Below, piece after piece: positions 34,899 to 64,000 of a stretch of DNA of 64,000 nucleotides. A program made the position numbers and the translations under genes. The stretch lies in the NCBI GenBank assembly GCA_963576565.1, contig OY755038.1:140732206-140796205 (forward strand). The letters are read 5' to 3'. The stretch comes from Aspidapion aeneum. Its lineage: Eukaryota > Arthropoda > Insecta > Coleoptera > Brentidae. Each line of letters starts with the position of its first letter. Within the stretch, counting starts at the first letter, position 1. The notes under the pieces were generated by a model. The model had not been told where the DNA came from, ran no database searches, and saw only the letters and a program-made list of their open reading frames with translations.

Positions 34899-37800
34899 TT
34901 AAATTTGAGAATTTGAGTCATCATCAGGATTAGTCTGGTCAGGTTTTAGGTCCTGAACATGCCATATACCTTTATTATTGCCATTCTCGTCTTCTAGCTC
35001 ATAACAGCAAGAACCAACTTTGCGTAGAACGATAAACGGACCTAAATAAGTAGGAGCTAGTTTGGCATTGATATAATTGGCGGCATTAGACAGAATTTTG
35101 TTCTTTCTCCAAACCTTCTCACCAACTCTATACGTCATTGGTCTCCGACGTAAATTATAATATTTTCGCTGACGTTCTTGGCCTTGAGAAGTTCTTTGAC
35201 AAACTTTTTCATACATTTGACGAAAACCATTTTGTCTTTTCTCGATGTCTGATAATATATTTGGTGTATTGTCAATATTCATTCGATTCTTATAGTCCTT
35301 GCCAGTTATTTTATGTTCTCGACCAAAATTTACAAAGTGTGGGGTAAATCCTATAGTTTCATTAACACTAGTTCTAATTGCACACGTTATAGCAGCTAGA
35401 TTTTGGTCCCATGTACGATGGTCTTCTTGACGAATGTAGCAACTAATCATTGTTTTGACATCTTTATTTGACCGTTCGGTCGGATTCGGCCTTGGATAAT
35501 AATTCGCAGTGTAAAATGGTTTGACTCCGTATTTAGCACACAAAGACTTAAATATACTAGATTTTAGCTGTGGGCCATTATCAGTTATGATGTATTGAGG
35601 AGTGGAAAACATTAAAAATACATTTTCTTCAACGAATTTAGTAAGAGAAGTAGCTTTAGCGGAACGACATGGAAATGTTAAAACAAATCTACTGAAATAA
35701 TCTCTGACTACTAAAACATAAGTATAGCCTTGTTTCGATCTAGGAAATGGTCCGATATAATCTAAGCTAATACACTGCCAGGGTTCTGTGATATTTGGTC
35801 TGGTTCCCATAAGACCACATGGAGGTTTTTGTTCCACTTTATGCTGAGCACAAATTTTACATGATCGAACATATCTCGCAACATCGGCTTTTAGTTTAGG
35901 CCAATAATATTTTTGCTGAATTCTCCAGAACGTTTTGGAAACGCCAACATGTCCAGAAGTCGGTATGTCGTGACATTCGGTTAAAATTTTTGATCTTACT
36001 TCTTTTGGAATAACGAGTTTCCACAAATCTGGGGTATAACCCAGGTCTGGTATTTGACATTTGACAAATTTGTAAAGCTTATTACCTTCTACTCGCCAAC
36101 TAGGAAATTTGCTTGGAAAGTTTTCTACATTTAGTAACATTTTTAAATACCATCTATCTCTTATATTTACGAATGGAAAATCATTCTCTTTACAATCAGA
36201 GTTTTCAATTTCAACAGAATCTAATGTTTCTGGAACTGCTCTGCTAAGAAAATCGGGAACAACGTGATCTTTTCCCTTTCTGTGTATGATTTCAAAATCA
36301 TATGGAAGCAATCTTAAACTCCACCTTGCAAGTCTGCCTTGAGGATCTTTTAAACGAAAGAGCCATAGAAGGCTATGACAATCTGTGATAACTTTAAAAT
36401 GTTGTCCTTCAAGATAATGTCTTAAATGTTCAATAAAGAAGATGACTGCGAGACACTCTCGCTCAGTAGCGCTAAATTTTCTTTCTTGGCGTGTTAAGGA
36501 TCTTGACAAATAACATATCACTTTTTCGCCGTCTTCAAAATTTTGGGTTAGTACGGCACCAATACCATATGCTGATGCGTCGGTCTGCAAAATAAAAGTT
36601 CTTTCGAAATCGGGGCAAGCTAAAATAGGTGCTGATATTAACAGTTCTTTTATGGTTTTAAAAGCTGTATCACATTCAAATGACCAATTCCATTTTACTT
36701 TCTTTTTCGTGAGGTTTGTTAATGGAGCTACAATAGATTAAAAGTTTTTGATAAATTTCCTGTACCAACTACAAGTGCCTATAAAACGTCTAATTTCAGT
36801 CACATTTTTTGGGGGTTGCAAATTGACAATACTCTCAATTTTTGAAGGGTCTGGTCTTAAGCCAAATTGGTCAACAACGTAACCTAAATAATGGAGTTCT
36901 GGAAGGCAAAATTGGCATTTATCTTCCGAAATTACAAGTCCAGCCTCTCGAAGTCGATCAAACACAATGCCCAAGATTCTTAAATGTTCCGAAAACGAAC
37001 TACTGACGACTATAATGTCGTCAACGTATACCATGACGTAGGGAATTAGGTCAGCTCCAAGAACTTCGTCTACAATACGCTGCCATGTAGCTGGAGCATT
37101 AGTTAGACCAAAAGGCATTGTCAAAAATCTATAAAGGCCTCGTCCTGGGACTGTGAATGCTGTAAAATCCTTAGATTCATCACTAAGTTTCACCTGCCAA
37201 AATGCTGACTTTATATCGATTGAGCTTAGATATTTTGCATCTCTCAGTTTGTCTAAAATCGAGCTGATGTAAGGAAGAGGATATGCGTCTTTCTTAGTTA
37301 AAAAGTTCAATTTCCTGTAATCAACACAGAATCTGTAGTCCCCACTCTTCTTTTTAACGAGACAAACAGGGCTTGACCAAGGGCTTTTGCAAGGCTCTAT
37401 AACTTTCAATTTCAACATTTCATCTAGTTGTTCATCGATAATTTTCTGTTTAAAAGGCGAAACTGGGTAATATCTTTGCTTTAAGGGGGTGGTACCAGGT
37501 ACTACTTCAATCGTGTGCTCTGTAACATTGCAACAGCCTAGTTCTTTTGGCATCTGAGACATTTTTTGAGACACAAATTGATCTAATTGTGTTCTTTGTT
37601 CATGAGTCAAGGAATCTTTATCTTGAATGGAATTTAACATTGGCAAAAGTGGATATTCTTCTTCGGTAAAGTGCCAAACATCTTCATGAAGATTTGGAAT
37701 TATTTTCATACTGGCCCAAAAATCTATGCCAAGTATTATTGTATGAGAGAGTTCTGGCAATACTAGGATATCTATTAATTTAGTTTTTCCCATCAAACTA

Positions 37801-38096
37801 ACAGGAGCTTGGATGTATCCAGTACTTATGCAACTTTGGCCGTTAGCAACTGTACAATTTGTTTTATTTTTCTGTAATTGTAAACCCAATCTTTGAAGAA
37901 TATCATAACCCGGAAGTCCAACAATTGTTCGTGAAGCACCACTGTCTAATAGTCCAAGTAAAGGATAACCGAGTATTTCAATCTGAAGGTAGGGACGTTT
38001 GTCACCATTAGCGTGTGAAATTACGTAATCTAGCAATGCTTTGTTAGAATAATCAATATTGGTCGTCTGTTTTAAATAATTATTAGGAGGGATCAT
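34899..38096 (-). pseudogene. pol: Gypsy element 1 pol: protease, RT, RNase H and integrase
   Basis: One frame interrupted by a single TAA (36738-36740), between RT and RNase H. Order: aspartic protease with LLDSGASRTIVG; RT with SPWSSPVCLVKKK, FCVDYRKLN, LTMPFGLTNAPATWQR and catalytic YVDD (VMVYVDDIIV); RNase H with QTDASAYGIGAVL and the DCHSL block; integrase with the HHCC finger (H-x4-H in ECHDIPTSGHVGV, then CKIC) and the catalytic D, D, E (SLDYIGP, ITDNGPQ, NPTERSNK); and a C-terminal segment with YLGPFIVLRKV. It starts 5 bp after the gag stop in the -1 frame, so expression by -1 frameshift or reinitiation is plausible. No canonical slippery heptamer was confirmed. Confidence 0.92.
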
Positions 38097-38101
38097 GCGA
38101 C

Positions 38102-39490
38102 CTAACGAGCCTCCTGGGATCCGTTTTCCGGATTACATTTTTGACAATTACGACTGGTAACTCCTTGATTTCCACACCGATAACAGTGAAGATTTTTAGG
38201 CTCTGGACAATCTCTATTAAAGTGTCCTACTTTCTGGCAATTAAAGCAAGTAACAGATCTTTGAGGTCTTTGCGGAACACTAGCATTAACAGTATTTAAA
38301 GTTTGCTGTACTTCTGGTATATTTGATGGAGATGTTTGGAATTGATAACAAAAATTTTGTTGGGAAGTGCTTCGTGTATCGTCCGTAGCAATAAAAGCGA
38401 AATCTGGCTCTACAAAGGTATTTCGTTTTCTAGATGGTGGTACAAAATGATCCACGCGATATTTCTTTTGTTCTAATTTTAAGCATTCCTCCTCAAGTTC
38501 TACAAGAGAAGTAACAATGGGCAATTGGGTGGTGTAAAATGGAGCTAAATTACTTGTACAAATGTCTAATTGTACGTCAGATGGAATTTCGCCATATCTT
38601 CTGAATAAAGCTTTCATGCAGCATAAATATTCCACAATGCTTTCAGAAGGATCTTGAGTCCGTGCAAGAATTTCTTTGAAAAGTCTTGATCTATAGTCTG
38701 GAGGTTCAAAATGTTTAAGTAGCAGATTGGATAATCCGGTCCAATTATTAAATCTGGGACGATTGGCTCTAAACCAATTTAATGCTTTGCCCTCAAAAAG
38801 ATCAATAGCTTGATCGAAAAGTTCTTGATCAGATACGTTTCTTGCAATTTTTAATTCATCGACTCGTTCTAAAAAGGTATGAATCGTCATTTGTTTCGGT
38901 TCAGCTGTGAATTTAATGTCCCACTTTTTAACGGGAACCATTCTCGAATTTTTGCTTTGGCTAATAGATTTATTTACATTGATTGGAGATGTAACATGTT
39001 CATCTTCAAGGGAAGTTTCTGAGTCAGAAATGTGTAACTCATCCATAAGCACACTTAAATTTGGATCTTGCTTCATTAAGCTCTCTAGTTCTGATAGAGT
39101 ACTCAATATACTGACAATAACCTCGGATCGATCCTTCTTTTGTTCTTCAGATAATCCATCAAAAGGCAGTCTGTCTATTCTTTGTAACAGCTGCACTAAT
39201 CTTGATTTTACTCGAGCAAATTTACTACGAGCATTTTCACCAAGAACGTTTTTGGTTGAATTTTTTAACTCAGTAAGTTTTCTTTTAATCAATGGTACTT
39301 CGTCGTCATACGTAAATGGATATTTTGGATAAGTCAAAGGTTTTCCTTCTTTTTCCAACTTAAGAATAGGCCTTAAGCAGCTTCTCAGGTCATCCACAGT
39401 TCGTTCATCAGCAACCGGGAGTCCTCTAAAGGTAAATTCGTACACAAGGTCTTCCTTCTTTAAATAGTTTATTTCTAATTTGTAATCCAT
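38102..39490 (-). CDS. gag: Gypsy element 1 gag
   Basis: 462 residues, intact. Central capsid-like segment with WDIKFTAEPKQMTIHTFLER, GKALNWFRANRPRFNNW and ARTQDPSESIVEYLCCMKAL, matching retrotransposon gag capsid domains. The nucleocapsid end has one canonical CCHC knuckle (CFNCQKVGHFNRDC). A second knuckle (CYRCGNQGVTSRNC) has valine where the zinc-binding histidine belongs. It lies upstream of pol on the minus strand, after a ~680-bp leader. It would form the particle shell and package RNA. Confidence 0.9.
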   Translation of the reverse strand: MDYKLEINYLKKEDLVYEFTFRGLPVADERTVDDLRSCLRPILKLEKEGKPLTYPKYPFTYDDEVPLIKRKLTELKNSTKNVLGENARSKFARVKSRLVQLLQRIDRLPFDGLSEEQKKDRSEVIVSILSTLSELESLMKQDPNLSVLMDELHISDSETSLEDEHVTSPINVNKSISQSKNSRMVPVKKWDIKFTAEPKQMTIHTFLERVDELKIARNVSDQELFDQAIDLFEGKALNWFRANRPRFNNWTGLSNLLLKHFEPPDYRSRLFKEILARTQDPSESIVEYLCCMKALFRRYGEIPSDVQLDICTSNLAPFYTTQLPIVTSLVELEEECLKLEQKKYRVDHFVPPSRKRNTFVEPDFAFIATDDTRSTSQQNFCYQFQTSPSNIPEVQQTLNTVNASVPQRPQRSVTCFNCQKVGHFNRDCPEPKNLHCYRCGNQGVTSRNCQKCNPENGSQEAR

Positions 39491-40168
39491 GATGACTCAG
39501 TTCAAGCAAATTATCAAAATAATGTATTGAGAAAGCAAAAATAAAATAATAATTTCAATTTTAATTAAAAAAAAAAAAAAAAAAAAAATGTCAAAATCGG
39601 TAGTCTTTATCGGGAAAAAAAAAGTTTTTGAAAACTTTTGATGAACAAAGAAAAATGTTTTATCAAATATAAAAACAAATAAAACAAAAAAAATATATTT
39701 TTGTGTTTTAAATTTATAATAAAGTTTTTGTCAAAATAAAAAAAGGTCTATTTTGAGTTTTAAGTTTTTTACCGTCAGCATAAACTGTATATTAAATTTT
39801 ATTAAAATCTGACAACAAAAAAAAACTGTCAAAATGACATGTGGCTAAAATCGAGCAACAACTGTAGTATTTCACTTCACTAAATCCACGGACACTATGG
39901 TAACCAAAAAGAATATTGCGAAAGACAAATCAATTGATTATCTTTATAATAAAATGTTTTATTAAAAATAAAACAAAGACCTTAAAAATGTTTCCATAGG
40001 CGCAGGCGCGGTAAATCTATAATAAAGGTCAAGGAGAAGGGTATTTAAATCGAAATCAATAATAAGCGATTTTTTTTTAAGTATTTAAAAGAAAATACAA
40101 AAAAAATATTGCGCATGCGGGAAAAATCAAACAAGCGTTACTGCGCATGTGCCAACGTTTGTTTACTG
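39491..40168 (-). other. Gypsy element 1 leader
   Basis: Untranslated sequence between the primer-binding site and gag, A/T-rich with a long homopolymer at 39566-39588. No frame of interest. Confidence 0.7.
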
Positions 40169-47260: not shown

Positions 47261-50200
47261 TCAGGTTTGATCGTCTCGATCAACATTTCCCAGGTAAGGT
47301 TTTAGTCTGTCTAGATGAACAACTTTCATCTTGGACTTCGGGCTTCTCTGGATTCGGTAGACTACATCATTAATTCTCTTAACAACTTTATAAGGCCCTT
47401 CCCATGGTGGTGTCAACTTAGGTGATCTTCCTTTCTTGCGTTGAGGATTGTATAGCCAGACTTAATCATTCTCTTTGAACCCTGAAGAGTTTGCTTTCAG
47501 GTCATATCTCGCTTTCATGCGGTCACTGGCTATTTCTATTCGCTCTCTAACCACTTCATGGGTATCGTGCAGCTTTTGCCTTAAACGTTCGACATAGTCA
47601 TTAACCTCTAAGTGTGCTTCTTCAGGTGAACCAAACATGATATCACATGGTAAACGCAGTTCTCTACCAAACAGGATACTAGATGGAGTAGCTCCTGTTG
47701 TATTGTGAATGGCAGTTCTATAGGCCATCAAAAACAATGGAATATATTGGTCCCAATCTGTTTGGTGCTCATCAACAACTTTGCAAAGATGTTCCTCTAT
47801 TGTTTTATTAAATCTTTCAACCATGCCATCTGACTGCGGATGCAAAGCAGTAGTCCGTGTTTTATGTATTCCTAAAAGGTCACAGAGATTCTGGAAAAGC
47901 TTTGATTCAAAGTTTCTTTCTTGATCTGAATGTAGTTCCAAAGGAATGCCAAATCGGCTGAAAACATCATTTACCAGAACTTCTGCAACTGTAGCGGCCT
48001 CTTGGTTAGGCAAAGCAAAAACTTCTGGCCATTTGCTAAAATAATCCATGACAACAAGGATGTATTTGTTGCCCTTTTTAGTTTCTGGAAATGGTCCGGC
48101 CACATCAATAGCAATGCGTTCGAATGGCAGACCTACGTTATATTGTTTCATTTGACCTCTGGACCTTGTTTTGGGACCTTGGCTGGCTGCACAAGTCGAA
48201 CATCGGCGGCACCAGTTTTTCACATCTTGAAAGTAATTGACCCAATAAAATCGGTTTCGAATTTTGTCCATGGTTTTATTTATGTCTAGGTGCGCGCCTG
48301 ATTTTCCACCATGGCATTCGGCCATTATATTGTCTACCATGCTCTTAGGAACCACTACTTGATTAATCACAGTAAGGCCATCGGCACTTTCCCAGGCACG
48401 TTTAAGGATGTTTTCTTCTACTATCAGTGAATCCCATTGTGCCCACAGTGATTTGAATATCACCCCTTGGTTTGCGATATCTTGCCATGATGGTCGTGGC
48501 TGGTTCTCTTCTTTCAATCGCAAGATAGGTCCTACATCTTTGTCGTTAAGTTGTGTGGTTCTAATCGAAGCCGACATCCATTCTTCATCTGGTTCTAACT
48601 TTATCTGGCGCACGTTGGTAATTCCTTCTTTCTGGTCAATTTTCCTGCAATGTTTACAATCCTCGGGGCAAGGTCTTCTGGACAATGCATCTGCATTATT
48701 ATGCACCCTTCCTGCTCGGTGCTTAATTTGATAATGGTATTGTTGTAGCTTTTCTATCCATCTCGCGACTTGCCCCTCAGGTTGTTTCATTTTCATGAGC
48801 CACTGTAACGCAGCATGATCCGTTCTAATCAGAAACTCTTGTCCGTAGAGATATTTGTGAAAGTGATCTACGGATTTAACTATGGCTAGGAGCTCCTTTC
48901 TAGTAACACAATAATTTCTCTCTGGTTTGGATAGCTTCTTGCTGAAAAATTCGATGACCCGTTCTTCTTCATCTTGTACTTGGGAGAGTACTGCTCTTAT
49001 GCCATCGTTGCTCGCGTCAGTATCTAATATGAATTTTCCTTTTGGAATGGGATATGCAAGAATCGGACTAGAACATAATGCTGCTTTTAGTCTTCTAAAT
49101 GCTTGGTCACATTCGGTATTCCATTTGTAAGAAGCTTTATCTTCTGTAAGTCTATGTAACGGAGACGCTATTTTGGCGAATCCTTCTACAAATCGTCTGT
49201 AGTATGTACACAGACCCAAAAAGCTTCTCAATTCATGTTTGTCACGAGGTTGAGGCCATTCTTTTATTGCTTGTAGCTTCTTTTCGTCGGTATGGATGCC
49301 TTCTCGGGAAACGACGTGACCCAGGAACTCAACTTTTTCTTGGAACAGAAAACATTTCTTTGAGTTTAATTTAAGATTTGCGTTCCTGATTCTTGAGAAT
49401 ACTTCTCGTAAATTATCTAGATGTTCTTGAAATGATTTTCCCATTACTATGACATCATCCAAATAGACTAGGCAGGTTTTCCAAGTAAGGCCTCGTAGAA
49501 CGACTTCTATTAGTCTTTCAAATGTAGCTGGGGCATTGCACAGGCCAAATGGCATCACATTAAACTGATAAAGTCCACTTCTAGCAGAGAATGCAGTCTT
49601 CTCTTTATCTCTTTCAAAGATTCCTACTTGCCAATACCCACTTTTCAGGTCAAGAGTAGAAAACCAATATGATCCTGCCAACGTTGTTAATGTGTCGTCT
49701 ATTCTTGGCAGTGGGTAACTATCTTTCTTGGTCACATCGTTAAGTTTCCTGTAGTCGACACAAAATCTAGTACTTCCATCCTTTTTAGTGACCAACACCA
49801 CAGGAGATGACCAAGGACTTGATGACTCTTCAATAACACCGTCGCTGAGCATTTTATTAATGAGATTGTGAACTTCTTCTTGCTTGGCCATTGGTAGTCT
49901 TCTTGGGGGTTGTCTTATCGGTTGGGCATCGCCAGTGTTGATAGCATGTTGAATAAGGTTTGTGCGTCCCGAACTACTCCTAGTTTCGAAGATATTACTT
50001 TGTTCTTCTATAAACTCTCTCGCTTTACTATATTCTTCTGGAGTGAGATGTTGCCAAGTTGACTCAAATTGCTGAAGTACCTCCATTGGTAACTTGCTTG
50101 TATCCTCGGAAGTTGGCTCTTCACATCTTGTTACTTTCTGTACTGGTTCAAATAATGCTACCACCTCCCCCTTATTAATTTTGACACTATTTGGGAAAAT

Positions 50201-50818
50201 ATTCGCGACTCTAATCGGGATGTCTTTATCGGTTTTAACTAGTGATTTTGCAACGAGGTAGGTGTTGGGTGTGTTTTGTTGGCTTATGAGTCCGACGCAG
50301 CTTGATGTTTTACTTTCTAGCCTCCCAAAAATTATGGTCTCACTGTTACCGACTAGTCTTGTTGTGCATACTGCCACGACCTTTATTGGTTCTTTATTGA
50401 AGTGACTATTTGACAAAATGAACTCTTCGTTCCCAAATCTTAGGGTATTAAGTTTATTATCAAACGCAAATCCATGTTTACTTATCAAGTCCATTCCCAA
50501 AATAAATTCGTCTTCTATTTCGGCAACCAATACAGTGTGGCGAATCTTCAATCTTCCCAGCTGTAGGTCTGTATCTGTCTGCCCCAACACGTCGGCGGAT
50601 TCTCCAGTCACAGTCTTAAGTGTTATTTTCTTTTCTATTGGTCGAATTTTATATCTCGTTGCAATTTTGAACTTAAGCAATGATATGGCAGCACCAGTGT
50701 CTACTGTTATATTAACTTTTCTCCCATTAATGAGTCCGTCGATGTTAAGACTGTCAGCAGTATGTTTTAGGCTCTTAATAGAGTAAATTTTGGGGGCTCT
50801 ATTCCCATTAGCCAACAC
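47261..50818 (-). pseudogene. pol: Gypsy element 2 pol: protease, RT, RNase H and integrase
   Basis: An 1,118-codon open frame (50818-47462), then a TAA at 47462-47464, then a further 66 in-frame codons to TGA at 47261. Protease TVDTGAAISLL; RT with SPWSSPVVLVTKKDG, FCVDYRKLNDV, FNVMPFGLCNAPATFERL and YLDD (CLVYLDDVIV); RNase H with DTDASNDGIRAVL and RTDHAALQWL; integrase finger (ECHGGKSGAHLDINKTM...CSTC) and catalytic D, D, E (AIDVAGPF, LHSDQERNF, MVERFNKT). Beyond the stop lies a GPY/F-type segment (WEGPYKVVKRINDVVYRI). The single nonsense codon removes only this tail, so a mostly complete enzyme could still be made. Confidence 0.93.
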
Positions 50819-50841
50819 CCGCCCCTCTGCGTTGACTAGTT

Positions 50842-52123
50842 TTAGTTTTCCTGATCTCTTCTTCGGTACTCTGTCCCGCTAGATGGCGAGCGAGACCTTA
50901 TTTGGACGCGACAATCGCTTTGAATATGCCCTGTACGTCCGCATCTGAAACACTTTACATTTGGAGGGGATCGTCTGCTTTCTTTCACAGAGTCAATCTT
51001 CTCTATCAGTGATTGAAACATTTGGTTTAGCGTTTTTGAGTTGACCTCATGTCCATTGCTCATTTCTTCTCCCTCCTGAATTGAAACAGCTCTTACTTTT
51101 GGCCTGGACATATTATTTGATGATTCAATTTCAAGGGCTCGAATCAACACTTCACTGCTGTTATGGAAGCGTTCTCGACGAAGTAACTTTGCTAAGTCCG
51201 TGTCTCGTAATCCGTTAATAAAGCGACCTATCGTGAAGGGATCTCTGTAATTTTCTGGCATTTCTGGGTAAGCTAAATACATCAGCCTCCTGATATCTGC
51301 TTCATACTCTTGCAATGATTCTCCTGGTCTTTGTTGACGAATATTTAATTCTATATAACCTTCTTTCTAACGCTGCCACTAAAGCATTATAATTCTGTTT
51401 TTGTTCGACTGGAATGGACCGTAAAAGTCCCAGAGCAGGTTCTCGTAGAGCTACTAACAAAGCTCTAGCTTTTTCTTCATCATCCCAACCATTTGCAGCA
51501 GCGGCAGCTTTAAACTGTTGTTTGTAAGTAGACCAGGAAGACGTACCATCAAAATTTGGAGGCTTAATGTTTTGGTTGGAATTTACAACACATCCTTGAG
51601 CTTTTATTTTGTTGTGTTCTTTCTGAAGCTGTATAAACTGTTTTGACATGTCCTGGAATTTTTCTTCTATGGTTTGAAAAACTTCTTCCCTAACATTCTG
51701 TAGTTTGGTCTCCACTTTTTCTTCAACATTTTGTACCTTTTCCTCAACATTTTGTACCTTTTCTTCTACATTCTGCAATTTATTTTGTACCTTTTGTTCC
51801 ACACTATGCATTCTTTGAGTTATTTCTTCCTTAAGATTTTCGGTTGCACTCTTGAACTCTTTTCTCAGCTGTTCGGAGTTGCTCTTTATTTGATCGAAGT
51901 TTTCTTGAATGCCATCTAATCTTTGCTCAAATGTCTGTTTCATATCGTTCTGGTTTTGTTCGATGGTCTGTCTCATATCATTCTGATTTTGTTCAATAGT
52001 GTGTTTCATGTCGTCCATGGTGCGTTTCATATCGCCCTGGTTTTGAGCCATTTGAGCTGCTAGAGCCTGCATCATTTTAGTTAGATCTTCCATCTTTGCC
52101 GATCCTTGTCTAGTAAGCATCAA
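50842..52123 (-). pseudogene. gag: Gypsy element 2 gag with repeated coiled coil
   Basis: Two overlapping frames of one gag. 52123-51302 gives a long N-terminal coiled coil built of internal repeats (QNQNDMRQTIE-type units and three NVEEKVQ-type units), then a capsid-like start (PPNFDGTSSWSTYKQQFKAA). 51315-50842 continues with GESLQEYEADIRRLMYLAYP and ends in one CCHC knuckle (CFRCGRTGHIQSDC). The join near 51350 is disrupted by a small indel. Pol follows after about 23 bp. The repeats imply a rod-like N terminus that can change length by slippage. Confidence 0.88.
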
Positions 52124-52139
52124 CTTCCTGATAAATCAC

Positions 52140-52930
52140 TTAAAACGTCTATTTTAGGGCTATAAAGCGAATGTCGAAGTCGGTTTTTCAATATCTCTTC
52201 CAATTCTTAAATAGAACCTAATGGAATGTTCTGGAATATACTGGTAAATGCTACTCTTTCTGCTACTAGGCAAATGTAGAAGTCACTTTTTGATTATCTC
52301 TTTTGGTTCTCGAATAGACCGTCGTAGAATGTTATGGAATATTCTAGAAATAATTTCTAATTCTTACTTTTCAAATAACTAAGCTACTGTTGAAGTCGGT
52401 ATTTGTATATCTCTTCTAGTTTTTGAATAGAACGTCGTAGAATGTTATGGAATCTTCTAGAAATTCTTTCTAATTCTTACTTTTGAAATAACTAAACTAA
52501 TGTCGAAATCGGTATTTGTATATATCTTCTAGTTTTTGAATAGAACGTCGTAGAATGTTATGGAATCTTCTAGAAATTCTTTTTAGTTCTTACTTTTGAA
52601 ATTACTAAGCTAATGTCGAAGTCTCTTTTTGGATATTTCTTCTGGTTTTCGAATAGAGCGTCGTAGAAAGTGATGGAATGTTCTAGAAATTCTTTCTGAT
52701 TCTTACTTTTAAAATTACTAAGCTAATGTCGAAGTCGGTATTTGTATATCTCTTCTAGTTTTTGAATAGAACGTCGTAGAATGTTATAGAATATTCTAGA
52801 AAATCTGTCTAATTATCAATTTTTGGACTGTAAAGTTAATGTCAAAGTCGGTTCTTAAATATCTCTTTTAGTTTTTGAATAAAACAATATCGAACTTCTT
52901 CGAATATTCTGGAAAAATCACTTACTGTTT
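52140..52930 (-). promoter_or_regulatory. Leader array: seven 113-bp units, each with a heat-shock element
   Basis: Perfect GAAnnTTCnnGAA sites begin at 52224, 52337, 52450, 52563, 52676, 52789 and 52902, exactly 113 bp apart. The surrounding units share TCGAAGTCGGTATTTGTATA and GAATAGAACGTCGTAGAATG. The array lies between the primer-binding site and gag of Gypsy element 2. Alternating inverted nGAAn blocks are the binding sites of trimeric HSF, so stress-responsive transcription is a reasonable inference. Confidence 0.85.
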
Positions 52931-53000
52931 TTCTGTCCAATTGTCCTATCCGGTGGTAATATGTAAGGATAGTCTTTGCACTATTTATTTCTTTTAATCT

Positions 53001-53432: not shown

Positions 53433-53745
53433 TTATTATTTAGTCGGTTTAGAACGTTTTTCTACGTTGTCCGACGCCTATTCTCCACCTCCTTCGATCC
53501 TGACAATCATCTTCTGTCAGATTTTTTTGACTCATTGATCTGCGCCCTATTGGTTGCCATTCTAGCACCTGCTTTGGTAATCTTTCGTCGTTCATCCGTT
53601 GTACATGGCCGTACCATATCAGTTGTCTTTTAGTGATGTCATCCCTTATGCTTCCTTCGATTCCCATTCTTTCTTTTATGATCTCATTTCTTATGTGATC
53701 TGTTCTAGCTTTTGTCGTGATTTGTTTTATCCGCAGGCTTAAAAC
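53433..53745 (-). pseudogene. RTE-like LINE, C-terminal fragment
   Basis: Minus-strand frame RQLIWYGHVQRMNDERLPKQ, VLEWQPIGRR and WRIGVGQRRKTF, the typical end of RTE-type reverse transcriptases in insects. The linker between is shortened. Its 3' tail is a TAA repeat, split by Gypsy element 2: part lies at 53433-53442 and the rest at 46818-46832. Confidence 0.75.
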
Positions 53746-56700
53746 CTAATTTTTGCTCCTAAACGGATTAAAAAATAGATTTTATCCCCGATAAAAGAAA
53801 TCAACTATTTACCTTTGGGGGTAAACTCAGATCGAAGGTAAGCCAACAAGAGGTCGGACCAGTCTTCTTTAATGATTACTCTCGCAAGCGATTGTTATGT
53901 CAAGGAAACTACCATCAATTCTACTTGCGTAAGTAACCCCGAAAACTGGTTTCCCTCCTTAATCAGTTTTTTTATATTTTAAAGGTTTTTATTTCTAGCA
54001 AGCGATAAATGTTGTACATGTTGGAATGAAAAATAATTAAAGATAACCTAACCTTGTCTGTGTACCCTGAACTAATAATATTAAATACTACTTACATTAA
54101 TAAACTTGGAGGGAGCACTTTCGGCTGTCATCACATGTAACTTTCACCAAACCCAAAAAAACTCTCCCGTCGAAGCTCCCATTTGCACTGTCCTCGATTT
54201 AATCACTGTTTTTGCAAGCTTGCAACTGCTTATTAAATTAACTATACAGGGTGCTTCATAACACAACCCCCTCCCTTAGAAGCGTTACGTCCCGAAACGC
54301 GAAAAAAATTAATTTATTAAATAAAACGAACGCAAAATGAAAAACTACTTAAACCGCGACAAATTATTGAATCGAAGACAGTCAAATCTTTAACCTATGT
54401 ACCTATCTATATTCCTCAACAATAAAATGTTTAAATCTTCAGCAAAGATAAACTACAAAATTTATTTCTACAGCTCCATAAAAGTTAAAAGTTTAAAAGG
54501 CATAAAAATGACAACATTTTTTAATTATATAATTGTTTTTAAATTTTAAATATTTTTTTTCTACAGACATATTACTTTTATCAACCTTTTGAGGAGTATG
54601 TTTACAACATTTTTATTTCATTACCATTCTTCACTGCTGGTGTTTACAAAATTCAGATATATTTTTTGTTACTCTTTTACGCTGTTCTTACTCAAAACTC
54701 TTCTTTTGTCGTATATTGACTAATACTTTTTTCTTATTTTTAGTATTGTAAGTAAATTTTTTGCAGACTTTAATATGGTTTTTATTCCTTTCTTATCGAA
54801 AACATACATACAACCGATATAAAGTAATATGCTCTGTTTAACTATGAAAAGGCATGAATTGTTGTCATTTCGTTGAAATTACAGAAAAAAATTACAAACT
54901 TTGTTGTTCACATTTTTTGTTACTCTTTTACGCTGTTCTTACTCTAAACTCTTCTTTTGTCGTATATTGACTAATACTTTTTTCTTATTTTTAGTATTGT
55001 AAGTAAATTTTTTGCAGACTTTAATATGGTTTTTATTCCTTTCTTATCGAAAACATACATACAACCGATATAAAGTAATATGCTCTGTTTAACTATGAAA
55101 AGGCATGAATTGTTGTCATTTCGTTGAAATTACAGAAAAAATTACAAACTTTGTTGTTCACATTTTTTTTTAACCTAAAATTTTCAGTCTATTCTTACAA
55201 TATTACCTAAAGCTTGATAATAATTTAAATGTTTTCCAAAAGAAACTGTTTCAAAAATATGTTTGCTTATCAAAAAAAATAGCTTTATAAAGAAGTCTAT
55301 GAGCTGTCACAAATTTTCCGATATTCTACATTTATCTGTCTACTTCATAGCCACATTACCTATGTCCTGTTAAATTATTACCAACATGTACAACGCTTTC
55401 AATAAATATACAGTCACATCTGTACTTTTAACATTAAATTATTGTTTAATTTATCAAATCTAAATCTACCCTGTTAAATAATTACAAACATGTACAAAAG
55501 CTGTCAGTGGACACACATATCTTTTTGACATTAAGCTCTAGTTTAATTCACTTTCAACAATTTACTCTATTTATTTATTTATTTTAATTATATTCCGCGG
55601 TTCTGTAAAAAAATCTTTCCTAATTCCTAAATTATTCAAGTTCTTCGTTCGACTATTTAGTTCAACTTTAAATGTCATATAACTCTGAACAAAATTTTTT
55701 TTTGTGCTACACTTTCTTTAGCTGCTTTGTCAGTATTTTTTGCCACTCATCATTTTATCTTGTAATCATTCTTACATCATATACTCATTTTAACATCTTA
55801 TTAATCATTTTAACATCTCATTATTCACTTAAACATCTTATTAAACATTTTAACATCGCCTTAATCATTTGACCATTTTATATTCTATTTTGCCTAGGCC
55901 TAGGACGTCTTGTTCTTGTGTATCTCCTGCAGCGTAATATTCTATACTTCCTGGCCAAGTAAAAGATAGAATAAGACTGAGCATTCGATATGTTGCAAAT
56001 TCAAATATATCAATCCTTCTTTAACATGTACCAACTGATACAATCAATATACTATATAATTGGTTTAATTCAAATACCCTTATTTGCTTCCCGTTAGCAT
56101 AATCTAAATTTTCCAAGGAATATTTAAATCTTATAAGTTTTGTATTCCAATTTCTTTTAACATCTGCTGGTAAAGTCAATTTTAACAAATTCTAACAATT
56201 AGGCAATTATTTGCCATCACTTAATAAACTCTTTAAAAATTGGACAAGTTTTCTTAAATTACAAAAACTTCTTATTTTTTATCTTACTATTACACAAAAC
56301 ATACAAATGGCGGATTTTATGTTGCAATTATTTCACTTTTATAAGTCTATTTTTATGTTTTTTAAATTACCAAAAAAAATGTTTGTTTGTTAAACTATTA
56401 ACTGTCTCTTGCACGAATAAATGATGCTTGTTATTCTAATAGTACAAAGTCTTCATGTGGTTACTTTATCCCTGATCCGAAACTCTGCCAAAGGTTTTTC
56501 TTGGGATTAATTTGCTGGTACCATTGCATGATTTCTTTACAGATGATTAATTATCCTGGCGCTGAATTTTTCATCTTTTTTATGTTTCTGCTGTATCTAT
56601 TCGCATTTTGTAATAATATTCTCACTAAAAGCTAAAACATACCAAAACAAACCAAGATTAGCCTTTTTTTTAACTTTTTTTGTAGAAATTTTATTTTAAC

Positions 56701-57926
56701 AACATTAAAATAAAATATACAATTAATTAAAAATAATGAATGAACATTAATGTAGAAAATTAATGTATAAACAAAATTAATTTACTCAACTCAACTCATA
56801 CTTGGATTCACACCATTTTGAGTATGTACGTGCTTTTCATTCCAAGAATTTAATTATAAACAATGTTTCTAACATACTGCCGGTAAAAATTGTATCAAAT
56901 TCCTAAGTCTATTAATAAGAAAAAATTGCAAGCATACGTTGTTTGTATTTGACCTACATGTTATTGTATACCTCTTTATTTTACAACAGAATGATTTAAA
57001 ATTTTACGAACGTGCCAAGCCACAAATAATCACATTTATGACTTTTTACATTGAGTCTTTTTTAATCATGTCTGTACGTCTGTCGTCTATGCTAACAACT
57101 CAAAACTATTTTACCGATTTTGACAAAATTTATACTTTTTTTGCAGGTTTTAAAAACAAATTTCTAATAAAAATTTCCCTTTGTATTTATCTATTAATTG
57201 GACTTATTTTCTTTAAATCATCTTCATTATCTCCTTTTTTGAGCCTTTATTTCCTAGCACTCCTTTTTCCCTACGTTTTTCCGACTTAATATTTTTCTGC
57301 TAAATCTATTATAAACCACTTTTAATACTTAGGCGCAACCAACGTTATGACTTTCGCAATTTTTGGGCGCTAAACTACTTTTCTTTTTTAAACGTCTTCA
57401 ATTTTAACATTCCCATTGTAAAGCACGCAAAACACCTTTTATTAATAATAATTTACACATAGACCACCCCCTTTATTTATTCTTAGAAAATATTTTTAAC
57501 CTAACTCGGTTAAGTCGTTAAAAGGAATTCGCCAGTCAATCTGCAGACGTACATCAGACTTTATAAAATGAGTGCGTACACTAAATAAAGCCCTCTTAAC
57601 CCTTTATCTTCTTCTTGCCAACTATATTTGACTTAAAACGATTGATATAAGTAAAATACTTAACTTTAGTTTATTTCAGTCCTGCTGTTGTCTCACTCTT
57701 CTTAGAACTGTTTTTATTCGTAGGTAGCGCTTCTTTAATCTGCATTGTACATATATCGCTCTCCTTATTGTCTTATTCTTGTATTACTGTACGTACTTTT
57801 TATGTATTGTGGGTACCCAACCATTGACGTCTTACAATAACTTTTATTTACAGTGGATCCAATCTAAAAGCTAAAACATACAAAGAAAGAAAAAATGTTA
57901 GTATAATATAATACAAGTTTTGCCCT
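53746..57926. other. 4.2-kb AT-rich region, probably 3' part and LTR of Gypsy element 3
   Basis: No gene. It lies downstream of Gypsy element 3 pol on the minus strand. A purine run on that strand (AAATAAAGGGGGTGGTC, about 57463-57480) followed by TGTGTAAATT could be its polypurine tract and 3' LTR start, but the matching 5' LTR would be outside the window. 54245-54310 holds a TACAGGGTGCTTCATAAC mariner-type end. 55770-55880 has ~22-bp units (CATTTTAACATCTTATTAAT). A 116-codon T-rich frame at 56939-57289 has no domain and is not called. Confidence 0.45.
54662..55162. repeat. Tandem duplication of a ~250-bp segment
   Basis: Two nearly identical copies, each starting TTTTTGTTACTCTTTTACGC and ending ACAAACTTTGTTGTTCAC, with one substitution and a one-base length difference seen. 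A recent local duplication. Confidence 0.85.
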
Positions 57927-59079
57927 TTAGGTTTCGTACTCTACTTTGAGCGACCAGGGGTCATGATACGGGAGGATGCGGCTGACATGGATCACGTCAG
58001 TTTTTTCTTTTCTGTCTAGACCCAGACGTTTTTCGTAGTTTACTGGCCCAATCTTCCTAATAATCTCATAGGGGCCAAAGTACCGAAGTAATAACTTTTC
58101 CGAACGTCCAATCTTTCTCACTGGAGTAAAAACTTTTACTTTGTCCCCAGTTTTGTATTCTACATGACGTCATATCTCTCTTTGTCCCTCCCTTGGCGTC
58201 TCTCTAATTTTTCGACGGCATAGTTGAGAACTGCTAGGGCCCTATCTCGCAACTTACCAATATCTTCAAATTTTACATTTTGGTTTAACGATGCTTCGGA
58301 GGGTAATACTGGGTGTCTTGCATACAACAAAAAGAAAGGACTTACACCTAAGGTACTTTGTACACTAGTGTTGTACGCAAACTGTACATGGTCAACCCAT
58401 AAATCCCAGTCTTCCTGGTTCTCTGAAGTATACATGCTTAACATGGCTGTTATAGTCGCGTTCATTTTTTCTGTTGCCCCATTGCATTGGGGGTGGTATG
58501 ACGTCGTTTGTTGCTTTAATATACCCATTATTCTTAACAATTCATTAAAAAACTCAGATCTTAGCTGACTTCCTCTGTCTGATAGTATTTCTCTTGGACA
58601 CGAATGATTCTTTATTATATTCTTAAAAACAAATTCGACAACTGTTTCTGCCCTTGAATTAGGCAAAGCAGCTATTTCGCAATAACGAGTTGCGTAATCT
58701 GTGGCACAAACTATAAATGTATTGCCTCTGTCCTTTGACTTTTTAAATGGGCCTAATAAGTCTATACCAATTTTTTGGAAAGGCAACCCTACTTCGATGG
58801 GTTGTAAATGAATGGTTTTTTACTTGATTGTGCTTTCCTTGCCTGGCATAATCTACAGCCTTTCACATATTTTTCTACATCTTTGTACATTCCATCCCAA
58901 AAATATCTCCCTTTGATTCTGTTTACCGTCTTTGCAATACCTAAATGACCGGCCAGTGGCTCGTTATGATTTGAAAATAATATCTCTGAAACTAAGTGCT
59001 GGGGAATAACTAAGAGTTTTTCGTTTCCTGTAATTTGCGGATTTTTCTTATACAGGGTGTTAATAAAGTATGTAGCCAA
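57927..59079 (-). pseudogene. pol: Gypsy element 3 integrase
   Basis: Minus strand. 59079-58789 holds the HHCC zinc finger (H-x4-H in NEPLAGHLGIAK with the preceding NH; CRLCQ). After a frameshift, 58786-58160 holds the catalytic core with D, D, E (GIDLLGPF, ILSDRGSQL, GATEKMN). A second frameshift leads to 58121-57927, a GPY/F-type module (RYFGPYEIIRKIGPVNYE, VIHVSRILPYHD). Read with 61253-62632 this is the 3' half of one pol, but a stretch between RNase H and the finger is missing. Confidence 0.85.
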
Positions 59080-61254
59080 ACTTCAGGGGGCGATTCCTGG
59101 AGTCATTTTAGGAAGAAAAGTTCAAATAAGCATAGGTCCGAAAATGCATATCCAGCAAGATACAGGGTGTTAAACTTTGAAAAAAAAAATTGTTTTTTGT
59201 AAATATCTTCAACATCTTTTGCTTGATTTTTTAAAGAAGTTGCAATTAGCAAGTCCAGTGGCGTACCAGGGATGACCTTAGCAAATACTTTGTTAAAAAA
59301 AGTGTACGCCAATGACTTTTTTGACATTTTTGTATTTTTGGCGTATTGTCCAACTAAAAATACATCTTTTAAGTCTTTTGTCTTATTTTTATTACTTGCT
59401 CGGTTTTCCAGATAAAAAAATAAAAAGCATTTTATTTGGAAAAAACATTTTACGGTTAAAAAAATACTAAGTCTTTTCTGGGTAATTTTTGTTTACAAAA
59501 TTTAGGGGAAATTGGGAACTAGTATTTTATTAAGGTGCAAAAGTCCAGCGGCGTCTAGGTGCACACCTTAACCAATAATAATAAAAATTAATTGTACGGC
59601 AGTAATTTTTTGCCATTCTTATAAGTTTTCAGACAGCACAACTAAAAATACGACTTTTTAGAAAAAATGGAATGTCGTGGAGTGAAAGAAAAACAAAACT
59701 GTCAAAATTTGAGAAGTCTCATGGTAACAATCAACAATATCGAAAATTTGACAAAGTCCCATTACAACGATAAACAATATCGTATAAGTACGTTTAATTT
59801 TTTTACGTGCTAATTAAATGTGTTAATTAATTGATTAATTAGCTCTAAAAGTTACGTATGCTAGAGAATGGTGCAATTTACAAACGCAGAAATGGCAGAA
59901 ATGCATTTTGTTTATGGGATGGCTCAAGGTAATGCAAGAGAGGCACGACGTATTTATGCAGAGAGACATCCCAACCGAATTCTACCACACAGACAAACAT
60001 TTGTAAGAATACATGAACGGTTATGCGAGTCAGGTACGTTTGAGAGGAGCGATGCTGTAGGGAGGCCTGCAGTACTTAGAACGGTGGAGCAAGAAGAAGC
60101 GGTATTGCATGAAATTGAACAAAATCCTGGTACAAGTACGAGAAAAATTGCACGTCAATTAGACATAAATCACGTAACTGTATGGCAAATTTTACGATAT
60201 TACCAGCTGTACCCTTACCATCTACAGCGTGTTCAAGCTCTGCTACCTACTGATTTCCCCCAGCGTTTAAACTATTGCACTTGGTTTCTCGAACAACAAG
60301 AGGCATCTCCCAGGTTTTTAAGTCAAATATTATTTACGGATAAAGCCTGTTTTTCAAGAAATGCGATTATGAACTTTCATACAATCATGTCTGGTGTGAC
60401 GAAAACCCTCATGCAGTAATTGAAGATAATTTTCAACAACAGTTCTCAGTAAATGTGTGGGTTGGTATTGTAAATGACAACCTTATCGGGCCCCATTTTT
60501 TTCCAATGCGATTAAATGGTGACCACTACCGTTTTTTTTTGGAATTTGAGCTACCAGAGCTTTTAGAAAATGTCCCTTTGGCAGTAAGAGCAGGAATGTG
60601 GTTCATGCATGATGGTGCCCCGCCTCATTTTAGCATTGTCGCACGTAAGTTTTTGAATGAACATTACGAAGGACATTGGATTGGTCGAGCGGGTCCACAG
60701 TCATGGCCACCAAGATCACCAGACCTAAATCCCTTAGATTTTTTCCTCTGGGGACATTTAAAATCTTTGGTTTACCAAAACTCCACTCAACAATGAGGAA
60801 GAATTAAGACAAAGGATAGTTAATTCTTGTGATCAAATAAGGCAAACACAGGGAATATTTCAGCGTGTCCGACAATCAATGGTAAGAAGACTTCATTCTT
60901 GTATTGAAGTTAATGGAGGACACTTTCAGCAACTTCTGTAGTATAACCTGTTTGATTATGAATTGTAAATGCTTCCTCAAATTCTAAATAAAAATTTTAG
61001 AGAAATCACTTTTAAAAGAGTGTTATACCACCGTGAAATTTGTTTTGTAATAAAATGCTTTTTATTTTTTATCTCGAAAACAGAGCAAGTAGTGAAAAAA
61101 ATACAAGAGACCTAAAAGATGTATTTTTAGTTGGACAATACGCTAAAAATACAAAAATGTCAAAAAAGTCATTGGCGTACACTTTTTTTTTTAACAAAGT
61201 ATTTGCTAAGGTCATCCCTGGTACGCCACTGGACTTGCTAATTGCAACTTCTTT
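59053..61254 (+). mobile_element. Mariner-type transposon (DD41D spacing), right end deleted
   Basis: The left end is TA followed by CAGGGTGTTAATAAAGTATG. A second CAGGGTGTTAA lies at 59165. Inverted arms match at 59235-59440 and 61040-61254 (for example AAAGAAGTTGCAATTAGC). The right arm stops at the base equivalent to about 59235, so the outer ~180 bp of the right TIR is lost together with part of the host Gypsy RNase H. It encodes one transposase. Confidence 0.8.
59868..60941 (+). pseudogene. Mariner-type transposase
   Basis: The N terminus has a helix-turn-helix region typical of insect DUF4817-type proteins (FVYGMAQGNAREARRIYAER, RQTFVRIHERL) and a second one (STRKIARQLDINHVTVWQIL). The DDE core starts at LFTDKACF. 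A frameshift near 60370 moves to VNVWVGIVNDNLIGPHFFPM, MWFMHDGAPPHFS and RSPDLNPLDFFLWG. Between the second and third catalytic aspartates there are 41 residues (DD41D), as in the rosa/Visitor lineage. A second frameshift near 60783 leads to the C-terminal VRQSMVRRLHSCIEVNGGHF and TAG at 60939. With two frameshifts it is inactive. A lysine replaces the residue after the first aspartate, which is usually glutamate. Confidence 0.85.
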
Positions 61255-62632
61255 AGAGCCAAAGTAGGCCCTTTATACTAGAAATATCTCTGCCAAAGAT
61301 AGACAATCCGTAAATAACAGCCAAAGCTTCTAGTTCGGATATAGTATAATTTTTCTCGGCCTTAGTAAGCGTTCTACTTCCATATCCTATAGGGTGCATG
61401 TGACCATTTGTTTCTTGTAACACAATCACACCGAGACCATCTTTAGAAGCATCAGTTCTTAGTTCGCAGCCTAAGTTGGGGTTAAAGTGAGATAACACGG
61501 GTGCCTCTGAAAGTTTCTGTTTTAACTGTTGGAATGCCACTTCTTGTTCCCATTCCCATTTATAACCTGGGTCATTTCTTGTTACTTCGTATAGAAGTTT
61601 TGCTATACGTTAAAAATTTGCTATAAATTTTCTATAATAGGTGCAGAGTCCTAAAAAACTTTGTACAGCCCTCTTTGTTTTTGGGGTAGGGAATGACTGG
61701 ACTGCCATTATTTTTTCTGGATCTGGAGCGATGTGGTCTTTATTTACAATGTGACCCAGTACTTTTATTTCTGCCGCGGCAAAGGCTTTCAAAGTTAGGC
61801 CAGCACTTCGTAGTCTTTCAAAGACTTGCCTTAATTTTTGTAGAGGTTCCTGGAAAGTTCTGCTGAATATAATTGTGTCATCCAAATATTGGAGTAGTGT
61901 GGATCATTTTAGACCTTTAAAGACTCTGTCAACCAAATCAGAAAATGTACTAGGGGCGTTACATAGCCCAAAAGGCATCCTGTTAAATTCAAATAGACCA
62001 TAACCTGGGGTAACAAAGGCTGTATATTCTTTTGATGACTCTTCCATTTCCACTTGCCAATATCCACTAAATAAATCTAGAGTTGAAAAATATTTAGAGT
62101 CTCCAAAGTAAGTTAACATTTCTTCTATATTACTTAATGAATAACTTGATTTTTTTGTAAAAAGGTTAATTTTTGAATAATTTACACAAAATCTTGTTTT
62201 TTCCTCCCCTTGATCCCCCTTTTTCTTTACTAGGACAATAGGGCTGGAAAACGGTGAACTTGAAGGCCGAATTATATTGGCATCTAACATTTCGTTTACC
62301 TGTTTTTCAATTATTTCTCTCTCTTTTGGGAAAACTTTATACGGTTTACTCCTGAATGGCTTGTTTAGCTCCTATGTTTCTTGAGTCTGTTGAAAAACAT
62401 CGCTGTATTGTTTGATTAACTGCTTAAGTTGCATTTCCTCGCTTTTTGTTAATTCAGCACCCATTTTGTACAAGCTTTCCAATAACGTTTCTTCACTCGG
62501 CCCTTTTTTAATTATGAATAACTCCTTTTTAAGACAATTATCTTCTTTTAAAAATGCAATAGTAGTTCCTTTATACACCATCTGCGGTAAACTCGAACTG
62601 TTTATTATTGAAACCATGTCTTTTCTTTGCAC
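61253..62632 (-). pseudogene. pol: Gypsy element 3 reverse transcriptase and partial RNase H
   Basis: Minus strand. 62632-62372 is the segment before RT (GTTIAFLKEDNC; LKQLIKQYSDVFQQ). 62290-61904 carries SSPFSSPIVLVKKKG, FCVNYSKINLFTKK and FNRMPFGLCNAPSTFSDL. After an in-frame TGA (near 61902), 61885-61610 continues with the catalytic YLDD (QYLDDTIIF) and LGHIVNKDHIAPDP. 61540-61253 holds the RNase H start (CELRTDASKDGLGVIVLQ, ISELEALAVIYGL) and then breaks off at the mariner junction. Four or more lesions. Confidence 0.85.
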
Positions 62633-62894
62633 TCCTGTAATGGTGGTTGTAAAAATTTTCCTCTTTTTACCAAAAATTCTTCATTTGGACAAAATACATT
62701 TTTAAGTGGCCGCTGTTCCTTATTTTGTATGGACACAGTAAACTTTTTCTCCTCGAATGGCATTAAAAAATCTGTTTGTGACACACAAACTTTAGAGTAC
62801 CTACACTGATTATCTTCATACAGTTTCTCTTGTTGAACGTAAAACATCTCTTCCAAGTTCTTTCTTTTAACTGCTTGACTTTTGTCTTCATCTA
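62605..62894 (-). pseudogene. Linker between OTU and RT in Gypsy element 3
   Basis: Frame LEEMFYVQQEKLYEDNQ through FLMPFEEKKFTVSIQN and FCPNEEFLVKRGKFLQPPLQ. It resembles the spacer that follows the protease in Gypsy pol proteins (a VxI...N...GT pattern just before RT). No aspartic-protease D(S/T)G motif is seen between OTU and RT. Confidence 0.55.
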
Positions 62895-63330
62895 AGAAAT
62901 TGAGTCTTTCAATTAACTCATAGTGCCCATTTTTTGGTCTCCACTAAATAGCAGGTTTACAGTATTGGCGTGATCCTTCGTGACTATCAAAATTGGCTTT
63001 TTTCTTAAAATTTCGGAAAGATTCTTTTTTCAGAAACGAAAATTTTTAGTTAATATGGTATATTACTCCCAAAGCTATGCATTCCACATAGGTCCCATAA
63101 ACGCCATCTTTCTTAATATTTCTGCAATATTCTTCTTTAGAATGGTATATTATTTTATCTGAGGTAAGGCTTTCTTCAAAAATATATGGTTGAAATTTTT
63201 CCCAGTTTTTTAAAATATGCCCTGACGTAGCGCTTCTCAAAAGTCTGTGTTTTTCCTGAGTTTTAAATAAAGCAAGACTAACAGCGCGGTATAAACAGTT
63301 TCCATCTTTTTTAATTTTGTATTTTTCATA
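62895..63330 (-). pseudogene. OTU-type cysteine protease domain in Gypsy element 3
   Basis: Minus strand. It starts KIKKDGNCLYRAVSLALF, in which DGNC is the OTU catalytic block (Asp-Gly-Asn-Cys, cysteine codon at 63295-63297). It continues SATSGHILKNWEKFQPYI and IKKDGVYGTYVECIALGVIY, the conserved middle block. After a stop at 63046 and two small frameshifts it ends ILIVTKDHANTVNLLFSGDQ and then NGHYELIERL, where the histidine (62923-62925) fits the OTU catalytic His. OTU enzymes cleave ubiquitin from proteins. The domain lies directly between the macrodomain and the pre-RT segment. Catalytic residues survive but the frame is broken. Confidence 0.8.
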
Positions 63331-63377
63331 ATTTTATTTTTATGTAATAGCCGTTTTTCTTTTTGTGCCTTTTCTTT

Positions 63378-63797
63378 TTGAGGGTTAAACGTGTATACTA
63401 ATATTTCTATCTCTATTTTCTTGAAAATAAACAAAATCATATTTTTAACGATGCTCCATTCCAAACCATCTAAGCCGCAACCCATTCTCGAAATCGCCAG
63501 TTTATTAACTTTATGCAGTTTGATCTGATTACGTAATTTAATAAATGCGTACCATAATATTTCATAACTTGGCTTGCCAAAAAATCTTTCTTTTATTACT
63601 AAATAATAGATAAAACGACTTTTTTATTTAAAAATGCAAGTCCCTGTTAATTGGTTTTGATTCACCAATTTATCAATGTCTCCAAAGTTATTTCTAAAAT
63701 GTAAAGCTATTCCCCTCGACATGACCATGTCTTCCGACACACAATGAGCCAGAGGGTACTGCGAGTCAGATGTAAATATGTCCTTATATTGCTCCCA
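63378..63797 (-). pseudogene. TARG1/OARD1-like macrodomain in Gypsy element 3
   Basis: Minus-strand frame with one in-frame TAA (63624-63626). It reads DSQYPLAHCVSEDM, SRGIALHFRNNFGDIDKL, RFIYYLVIKERFFGKPSYE, HKVNKLAISRMGCGLDGLEW and IEIEILVYTF. This is the order of a macrodomain of the TARG1/OARD1 class, which binds ADP-ribose and removes it from modified proteins. The lysine of YLVIKER and the aspartate of GCGLDGLEW fall where I recall TARG1's catalytic Lys84 and Asp125. The frame overlaps the OTU region by a frameshift near 63330, so both were probably one polyprotein with pol. Confidence 0.82.
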
Positions 63798-64000
63798 AAT
63801 TTAATTTTTAAGTTTCGTTTTGTAAATTTATAATTACTTTGTTGAAACTGCTCAAAGCTCTCTGTTCCTTTATTTGCAAGCTGGCTTTTTGTTGTTTACA
63901 TAAATTCTTTATTTTTTAAATCTACTAAATTGCAAACCTTAGATTTCATCTGCAAAAATACTTGCATTTTTTCGTCACTACCCCCATTAATTAAAGACTT
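63798..64000 (-). pseudogene. Upstream part of the Gypsy element 3 polyprotein, unassigned
   Basis: Decayed minus-strand coding-like sequence (NGGSDEKMQVFLQMKSKVC, then a stop, then KGTESFEQFQQSNYKFTKRN). No domain recognised. It may be the end of gag or protease, continuing beyond the window. Confidence 0.35.

Follow-up and report, generated by a model that had tools for sequence, protein, structure and literature searches.

Layout of the Ty3/Gypsy element

The window, that is, the whole 64,000-nt stretch analysed here (G000:C1:140732206-140796205, in a searched genome of 1.286 Gb), carries near its right end a copy of an LTR element read on the minus strand. Comparison of the two LTRs by blastn placed the 3' LTR at 53709..54263 (minus strand) and the 5' LTR past the window end on the same contig (L029:1697-2065 plus 2678-2892, G000:C1), where it is interrupted by about 610 bp. 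The two LTRs differ at 14 of 562 ungapped positions. The gag gene (L029 1330-775, minus strand), located by tblastn with the proteins of relatives, also lies just past the window end, and CCHC motifs are present in the gag of relatives. With the relatives' proteins as queries, the minus-strand order between the LTRs was found to be gag, aspartic protease (PR), macrodomain, OTU, reverse transcriptase (RT), RNase H and integrase (IN).

The first-pass annotation had described a Gypsy element, and its Ty3/Gypsy identity was borne out by the RT, RNase H and IN that follow downstream on the same strand. RT is left as two open pieces (61610..62371, minus strand; PF00078, 1.8e-14 and 1e-4) and is followed by RNase H (61253..61609, minus strand; PF17919, 7.3e-29). 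IN lies at 57927..59082 on the minus strand in three open pieces, which are the H2C2 zinc finger (PF17921, 1.3e-22), the rve core (PF00665, 1.8e-8) and the C-terminal domain (PF24626, 1.1e-11). The same annotation saw no aspartic protease next to RT and proposed that the OTU might take its place, a suggestion that we rejected because PR stands in its usual position after gag (L029 672-394, minus strand; tblastn with relatives' proteins, E 2e-11), beyond the reach of the window, and PR is also recognized by Pfam in the relatives L011, L017, L030, L032 and L033.

An inserted DNA transposon, some 2.1 kb long and foreign to the Gypsy element, separates RNase H from IN (59083..61272, plus strand, outer ends approximate). 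It has long inverted-repeat arms at 59232-59425 and 61059-61255 and a broken transposase ORF with a match to PF16087 DUF4817 (5.8e-8) in 59865-60419. Between IN and the 3' LTR there is a region of about 3.6 kb (54264..57926, minus strand) with no recognised gene and, judged by ORF length alone, no minus-strand stop-to-stop piece of at least 60 aa wholly inside it. Part of this region shares 93-94% identity with L016 and L014, and a 230-bp direct repeat (54661-54890 / 54912-55141) is 100% identical between its two copies. No target-site duplication is visible, as the flanks of the LTRs differ; recombination or age may be the cause, and the coding assignment is unaffected.

Outside the 3' LTR, a 113-bp unit is repeated in tandem at least six times at 52152-52936. 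Two further Ty3/Gypsy elements lie on the minus strand of the window (47465-52135 and 34902-39496); PR, RT, RNase H and IN were recognised in those of their ORFs that were scanned, where Pfam gives neither OTU nor Macro.

Macrodomain and OTU in the window copy and its relatives

All macrodomain and OTU motifs quoted in the first-pass annotation were found again on the minus strand in the order that it gave. The OTU cysteine protease domain occupies 62920..63333 (minus strand) and runs from DGNC to NGHY. Its 95-aa piece at 63046-63333 scores 46.2 bits against PF02338, where the cut-off is 23.3 bits (E 8.3e-12), so the domain is a real OTU; its nearest PDB sequences are OTUD1 (1.6e-7) and OTUD5 (1.3e-5), and tblastn with the OTU of L009 extends it to 62920 at 48% identity. 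The TARG1/OARD1-type macrodomain lies at 63351..63800 (minus strand, limits from tblastn) with one in-frame stop. Pfam gives no Macro match in 63237-63623, the single macro-bearing piece that was scanned. The intact macrodomain ORF of L009 matches window 63312-63797 (G000:C1:140795517-140796002) at E 1.4e-26 and 37% identity, across one TAA. The TARG1-like character that had been proposed is supported through the relatives, whose macrodomains match human TARG1/C6orf130 (PDB 4j5r/2l8r) with E values of 4e-27 to 5.6e-33.

Chance motif matches were ruled out by a codon-shuffle null: against window 61000-64000 the macrodomain and OTU of L009 score 105 and 114 bits, and the best of 100 shuffled versions gave 23.1 and 21.9 bits, respectively. 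The window copy itself is broken. In-frame stops interrupt it, one within the macrodomain match and two within the OTU match, and macrodomain, OTU and RT occupy three different frames.

Both domains are found in open frames elsewhere in the same genome. In L011 one 740-aa frame holds the macrodomain, the OTU and the start of RT, with matches to TARG1 (4e-27, PDB), OTU (6.3e-14, Pfam) and OTUD5 (1.6e-7, PDB). In L013, which belongs to the window's own family, one 381-aa frame holds part of the macrodomain and the OTU; its PDB matches are TARG1 (4.8e-12, over a shorter piece) and OTUD1 (2.8e-7). L010 has OTU, RT, RNase H and IN in a single 1241-aa frame, and the 5' part of this element, L030, lies beyond an inserted BEL/Pao element and encodes PR, macrodomain and repeats in 731 aa. 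A 1084-aa frame in L017 runs through PR, macrodomain and repeats and ends inside the OTU. The first-pass annotation had looked to relatives with every domain from macrodomain to integrase in one frame; the relatives read show macrodomain-OTU-start of RT (L011) and OTU-RT-RNase H-IN (L010), as separate frames. Its assignment of the macrodomain and OTU to the element, as against a neighbouring gene, is upheld by these single frames shared with Pol domains.

A tandem-repeat array follows the macrodomain in L009, L017 and L030. The repeats, which are in frame and lie between macrodomain and OTU, have a spacing of about 135 bp (L009:3523-4764, L017:3060-4646, L030:2474-3539), and the length of the array varies among the three copies. 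Separately, L015 contains an inverted duplication whose two arms align over 1365 bp at 95.5% identity; it takes in pieces of the window family's macrodomain and OTU.

Across the genome, the best 34 rows of the OTU search (E up to 2.2e-13) were merged to 31 loci. At 16 of these 31, a macrodomain row of the same strand lies no more than 3.5 kb upstream, three more (L006, L007 and L008) proved to have a macrodomain on reading, and at one further locus (L010/L030) macrodomain and OTU are paired across an insertion. No macrodomain is within reach at the remaining 11 loci, 6 of which belong to a local array on C3 (79.61-79.82 Mb); none was found at the three of the 11 that were read (two copies in L023 and one in L018). 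Conversely, 16 of the 37 macrodomain rows that we classed as the PR-side type are followed within 3.5 kb by an OTU row, and all these co-location counts are lower bounds because both searches score the best candidates only. Fourteen other RT rows are at least 83% identical to the window RT, and an OTU row lies within 3 kb of 10 of them (the other 4 were not read). A single scan of viral contigs gave no match. The array of window-family OTU-RT fragments in L023 and at G000:C3 about 79.61-79.82 Mb includes a 1.7-kb tandem duplication that is 99.9% identical.

Active-site residues are conserved across these copies. We take DGNC and NGHY to be the sites of the OTU catalytic Cys and His. Of the 32 rows that cover the Cys, 31 retain it, the sole exception being a Thr in the decayed L016, and all 29 rows that cover the NGHY His retain that residue; nine rows in each count come from other, non-LTR-like loci, and the window has both residues. 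The catalytic dyad of TARG1 is Lys84/Asp125 according to PMC5087735 and PMC9411070. The aligned Lys84 is kept in all 22 covering rows, which represent 17 different stretches since some loci are counted twice, and all 23 rows that cover Asp125 keep it; the window is included in both cases.

We also compared substitution rates in pairs with few changes. For the OTU, dN/dS was 0.20, 0.20, 0.24 and 0.28 in four pairs; for the macrodomain it was 0.05 (L032/L033) and 0.51 and 0.55 (L009 vs L017 and L030); for RT it was 0.14, 0.37, 0.51 and 1.67. Two pairs had no synonymous change, namely the macrodomain of L017/L030 (3 non-synonymous changes) and the OTU of L010/L018 (2). These values suggest constraint on the OTU, and the macrodomain signal is mixed. 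As far as sequence can tell, both domains are probably catalytic in the less decayed relatives.

Range of Pol architectures

Taken together, the locus is almost certainly a decayed Ty3/Gypsy copy from a family whose predicted Pol reads PR, TARG1-type macrodomain, OTU, RT, RNase H and IN. The same architecture (PR-macro-OTU-RT-RH-IN) is found in the window family, in L011 and in the L009/L017/L010-L030 group. A second class (L032, L033, L034 and L035) has PR-macro-RT and no OTU, so the OTU is dispensable there. The pol of L034 is 76% identical to that of L010 across L010 residues 389-1224. Relatives lacking both domains, which the first-pass annotation had considered damaging to its proposal, do exist (L037 and L038, in which a linker joins PR to RT), but only in distant families, with RTs 57% and 51% identical to that of the window.

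In L031, which is of a different family from the window's, the macrodomain sits at another place in Pol. Its 1446-aa frame contains a PR-like motif (no Pfam match), RT, RNase H, the macrodomain at residues 771-910 (TARG1, 5.6e-33) and IN, and pieces of a Baculo_F envelope lie downstream of pol. Thus L031:466-6725 (G000:C10) shows a second Pol position for the macrodomain, between RNase H and integrase. L036 matches L031 over RNase H and macrodomain, in a comparison that did not reach IN. Among the 121 rows of the genome macrodomain search, 47 resemble the L031 class, 16 of them in frames of at least 1400 aa, as judged by an identity of 28-34% and a query start at 68 or later, with L031 and L036 alone having been read.

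The RT tree placed the window with L015 and L016 (99/99) and L034/L035 inside the group of L010, L011, L017 and L018 (100/99), with deeper forks not resolved. From this position, the OTU was either lost in the L034/L035 branch or gained beside it. The macrodomains of L009 and L011 are relatively close (58% identity). Those of other families share 33-43% identity with L031 or L032 and 35-44% with human TARG1; in this domain, the families with one or the other Pol position (PR-macro-RT and RNaseH-macro-IN) are about as diverged from one another as from human TARG1. The macrodomain tree, built without the stop-bearing macrodomain of the window, had long branches and poor resolution between families, and it did not distinguish one capture from two for the two Pol positions.

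In the OTU tree all 8 Gypsy OTUs clustered together and were separated from the 8 that came from other elements (100/99, with a long-branch warning). Recent exchange of OTUs with the OTU-bearing non-LTR-like elements was rejected on this separate grouping, to which the same warning applies. Those elements (L019-L022 and L024-L028) carry the OTU at the N-terminal side of their ORFs. Pfam, run on L019-L021 and L024-L026, finds RT together with OTU in L019, L020, L025 and L026, RT in a neighbouring ORF in L021, and OTU with zinc fingers in L024.

Proposed role of the two domains and its alternatives

Relative to gag, the pol of L017, L030, L032 and L033 is read in the −1 frame, and the two genes overlap by 31 or 34 nt. 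The overlap contains CCCAAAT or CCCAAAC at 4 of 4 loci read (two near-identical pairs), and by our own count this heptamer has the X-XXY-YYZ phase of −1 slippery sites. This frame relation and motif in the relatives suggest that Pol would be made as Gag-Pol through −1 frameshifting. Since the macrodomain and OTU lie inside the frameshifted Pol, they would be packed into the particle in small amounts as Gag-Pol, from which PR could free them; with PR present, the OTU would not be needed for basic maturation. In the particle or the incoming complex, the macrodomain might then strip ADP-ribose from protein or DNA, and the OTU might strip ubiquitin or a ubiquitin-like tag. The marks erased would be those by which the host silences or destroys the complex, before or at integration, and the targets could be incoming complexes or host factors near them. 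There are precedents for parts of this scheme in two reports: SIRT6 ADP-ribosylates KAP1 in L1 silencing (PMC4695847), an instance of ADP-ribosylation in silencing, and TARG1 reverses thymidine-linked ADP-ribose (PMC9411070), an instance of a DNA substrate.

As the best overall explanation we lean slightly towards erasers of ADP-ribose and ubiquitin that are delivered by Gag-Pol against host restriction, a function that we infer. In its favour are the frames shared with Pol domains, the co-location of macrodomain and OTU, the retained active-site residues and the heptamer in the gag/pol overlap; what counts against it is the lack of the OTU in L032-L035 and of both domains in L037 and L038, the 11 of 31 OTU loci with no macrodomain nearby, and dN/dS values that are not uniformly low and are based on small counts. 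Whether counter-defence is what the two domains are for we regard as an even question. That host ADP-ribosylation and ubiquitin tagging restrict LTR elements here, and that Gypsy Pol has been armed with particle-delivered erasers in response, is put forward tentatively, as a somewhat doubtful extension.

Three other explanations have to be weighed against this one. The two domains could serve the life of the element's own proteins, the OTU by removing ubiquitin from Gag or IN or by cleaving the polyprotein besides PR, and the macrodomain as an ADP-ribose-binding or nucleic-acid-binding module for assembly or targeting. Being part of Pol, both would be made together with it, and a role in transposition is proposed for the OTU of Ginger1 and Helentron in the passages on these elements in PMC2836005 and PMC4067079. 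However, a normal aspartic protease is present, the macrodomain keeps its catalytic dyad and not the fold alone, and related elements exist without the OTU or without both domains; we consider this reading unlikely, though it deserves serious attention. The domains could instead be passengers, host sequence that the element captured and carries along while it decays unused, as the broken window copy, the macrodomain dN/dS values of 0.51-0.55 and the patchy occurrence of the OTU across relatives would allow. Against this, the frames are open across diverged families, active-site residues are kept where macrodomains are 33-43% identical to L031 or L032, and dN/dS of the OTU is 0.20-0.28, which makes passengers improbable.

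It is scarcely credible that the macrodomain and OTU come from a host gene or another element that the Gypsy copy merely adjoins. The window copy taken alone, with its pieces in different frames, might give that impression, and OTUs also start ORFs of non-LTR-like elements in the same genome. Yet relatives have single frames with macro-OTU-RT and OTU-RT-RH-IN, the macrodomain and OTU are repeatedly co-located, and the 8 of 8 Gypsy OTUs group apart from those of other elements (100/99, long-branch warning). The one-frame relatives refute this explanation, and with it a host gene beside the element, unless they are assembly artefacts.

The preferred reading, Gag-Pol-delivered erasers, can be set beside several known systems. 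Like other Ty3/Gypsy LTR retrotransposons, these elements have LTRs, gag with CCHC in relatives, the order PR-RT-RNaseH-IN and the same integrase type; unlike them, they carry a TARG1-type macrodomain and an OTU between PR and RT or, in the case of L031, a macrodomain that separates RNase H from IN. The macrodomain resembles TARG1/OARD1 (C6orf130), of the ALC1-like class, in its 35-44% identity and its Lys84 and Asp125 equivalents, but TARG1 is a small stand-alone protein and here the domain is part of a retrotransposon polyprotein. The OTU scores above the Pfam cut-off and keeps the Cys and His positions, as in OTUD1 and OTUD5; in contrast to these, it is part of a Gypsy Pol and forms a group of its own relative to other elements' OTUs in the genome. 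Some RNA viruses use macrodomains and deubiquitinating proteases as tools of counter-defence. They offer a likeness in that both erasers occur in one genetic parasite, whereas their replication is unrelated and the macrodomain here is of the TARG1 type.

Among mobile elements, OTU domains have been described in Ginger1, Helitron and Helentron (PMC2836005, PMC4067079), which are DNA transposons, unlike the elements described here. The passages on OTU-bearing transposons in these two papers name no LTR element, and the term 'macro domain' has no occurrence in PMC2836005. Fish epsilon-like endogenous retroviruses carry macro-domain ORFs (Basta et al. 2009, as mentioned in PMC4977317) and so provide a retroelement-borne macrodomain, although, according to that mention, as additional ORFs and not as a domain of Pol. 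Among the titles and starts of abstracts covered by a literature search, which lay outside Repbase and most subscription papers and in two cases took in the best 20 of 3,867 and the best 15 of 916 matches, none described a macrodomain, an OTU or the pair in Gypsy Pol.

The macrodomain and OTU in a retrotransposon Pol, with the macrodomain at two Pol sites, suggest that ADP-ribosylation may restrict retroelements too. If the proposal is true, these elements would indicate that a defence against retroelements based on ADP-ribose has so far gone unrecognised, possibly one acting on cDNA. The open-frame relatives supply defined single domains for direct tests.

Finally, in the macro-only family, pol of L032 is followed by an ORF of at least 687 aa (L032:6938-8998) without a Pfam gathering match. 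It has 21 Cys, 8 NxS/T sites, an RxKR-type site at 107 and hydrophobic stretches near 567-593 and 608-640, and may encode an unrecognised envelope.
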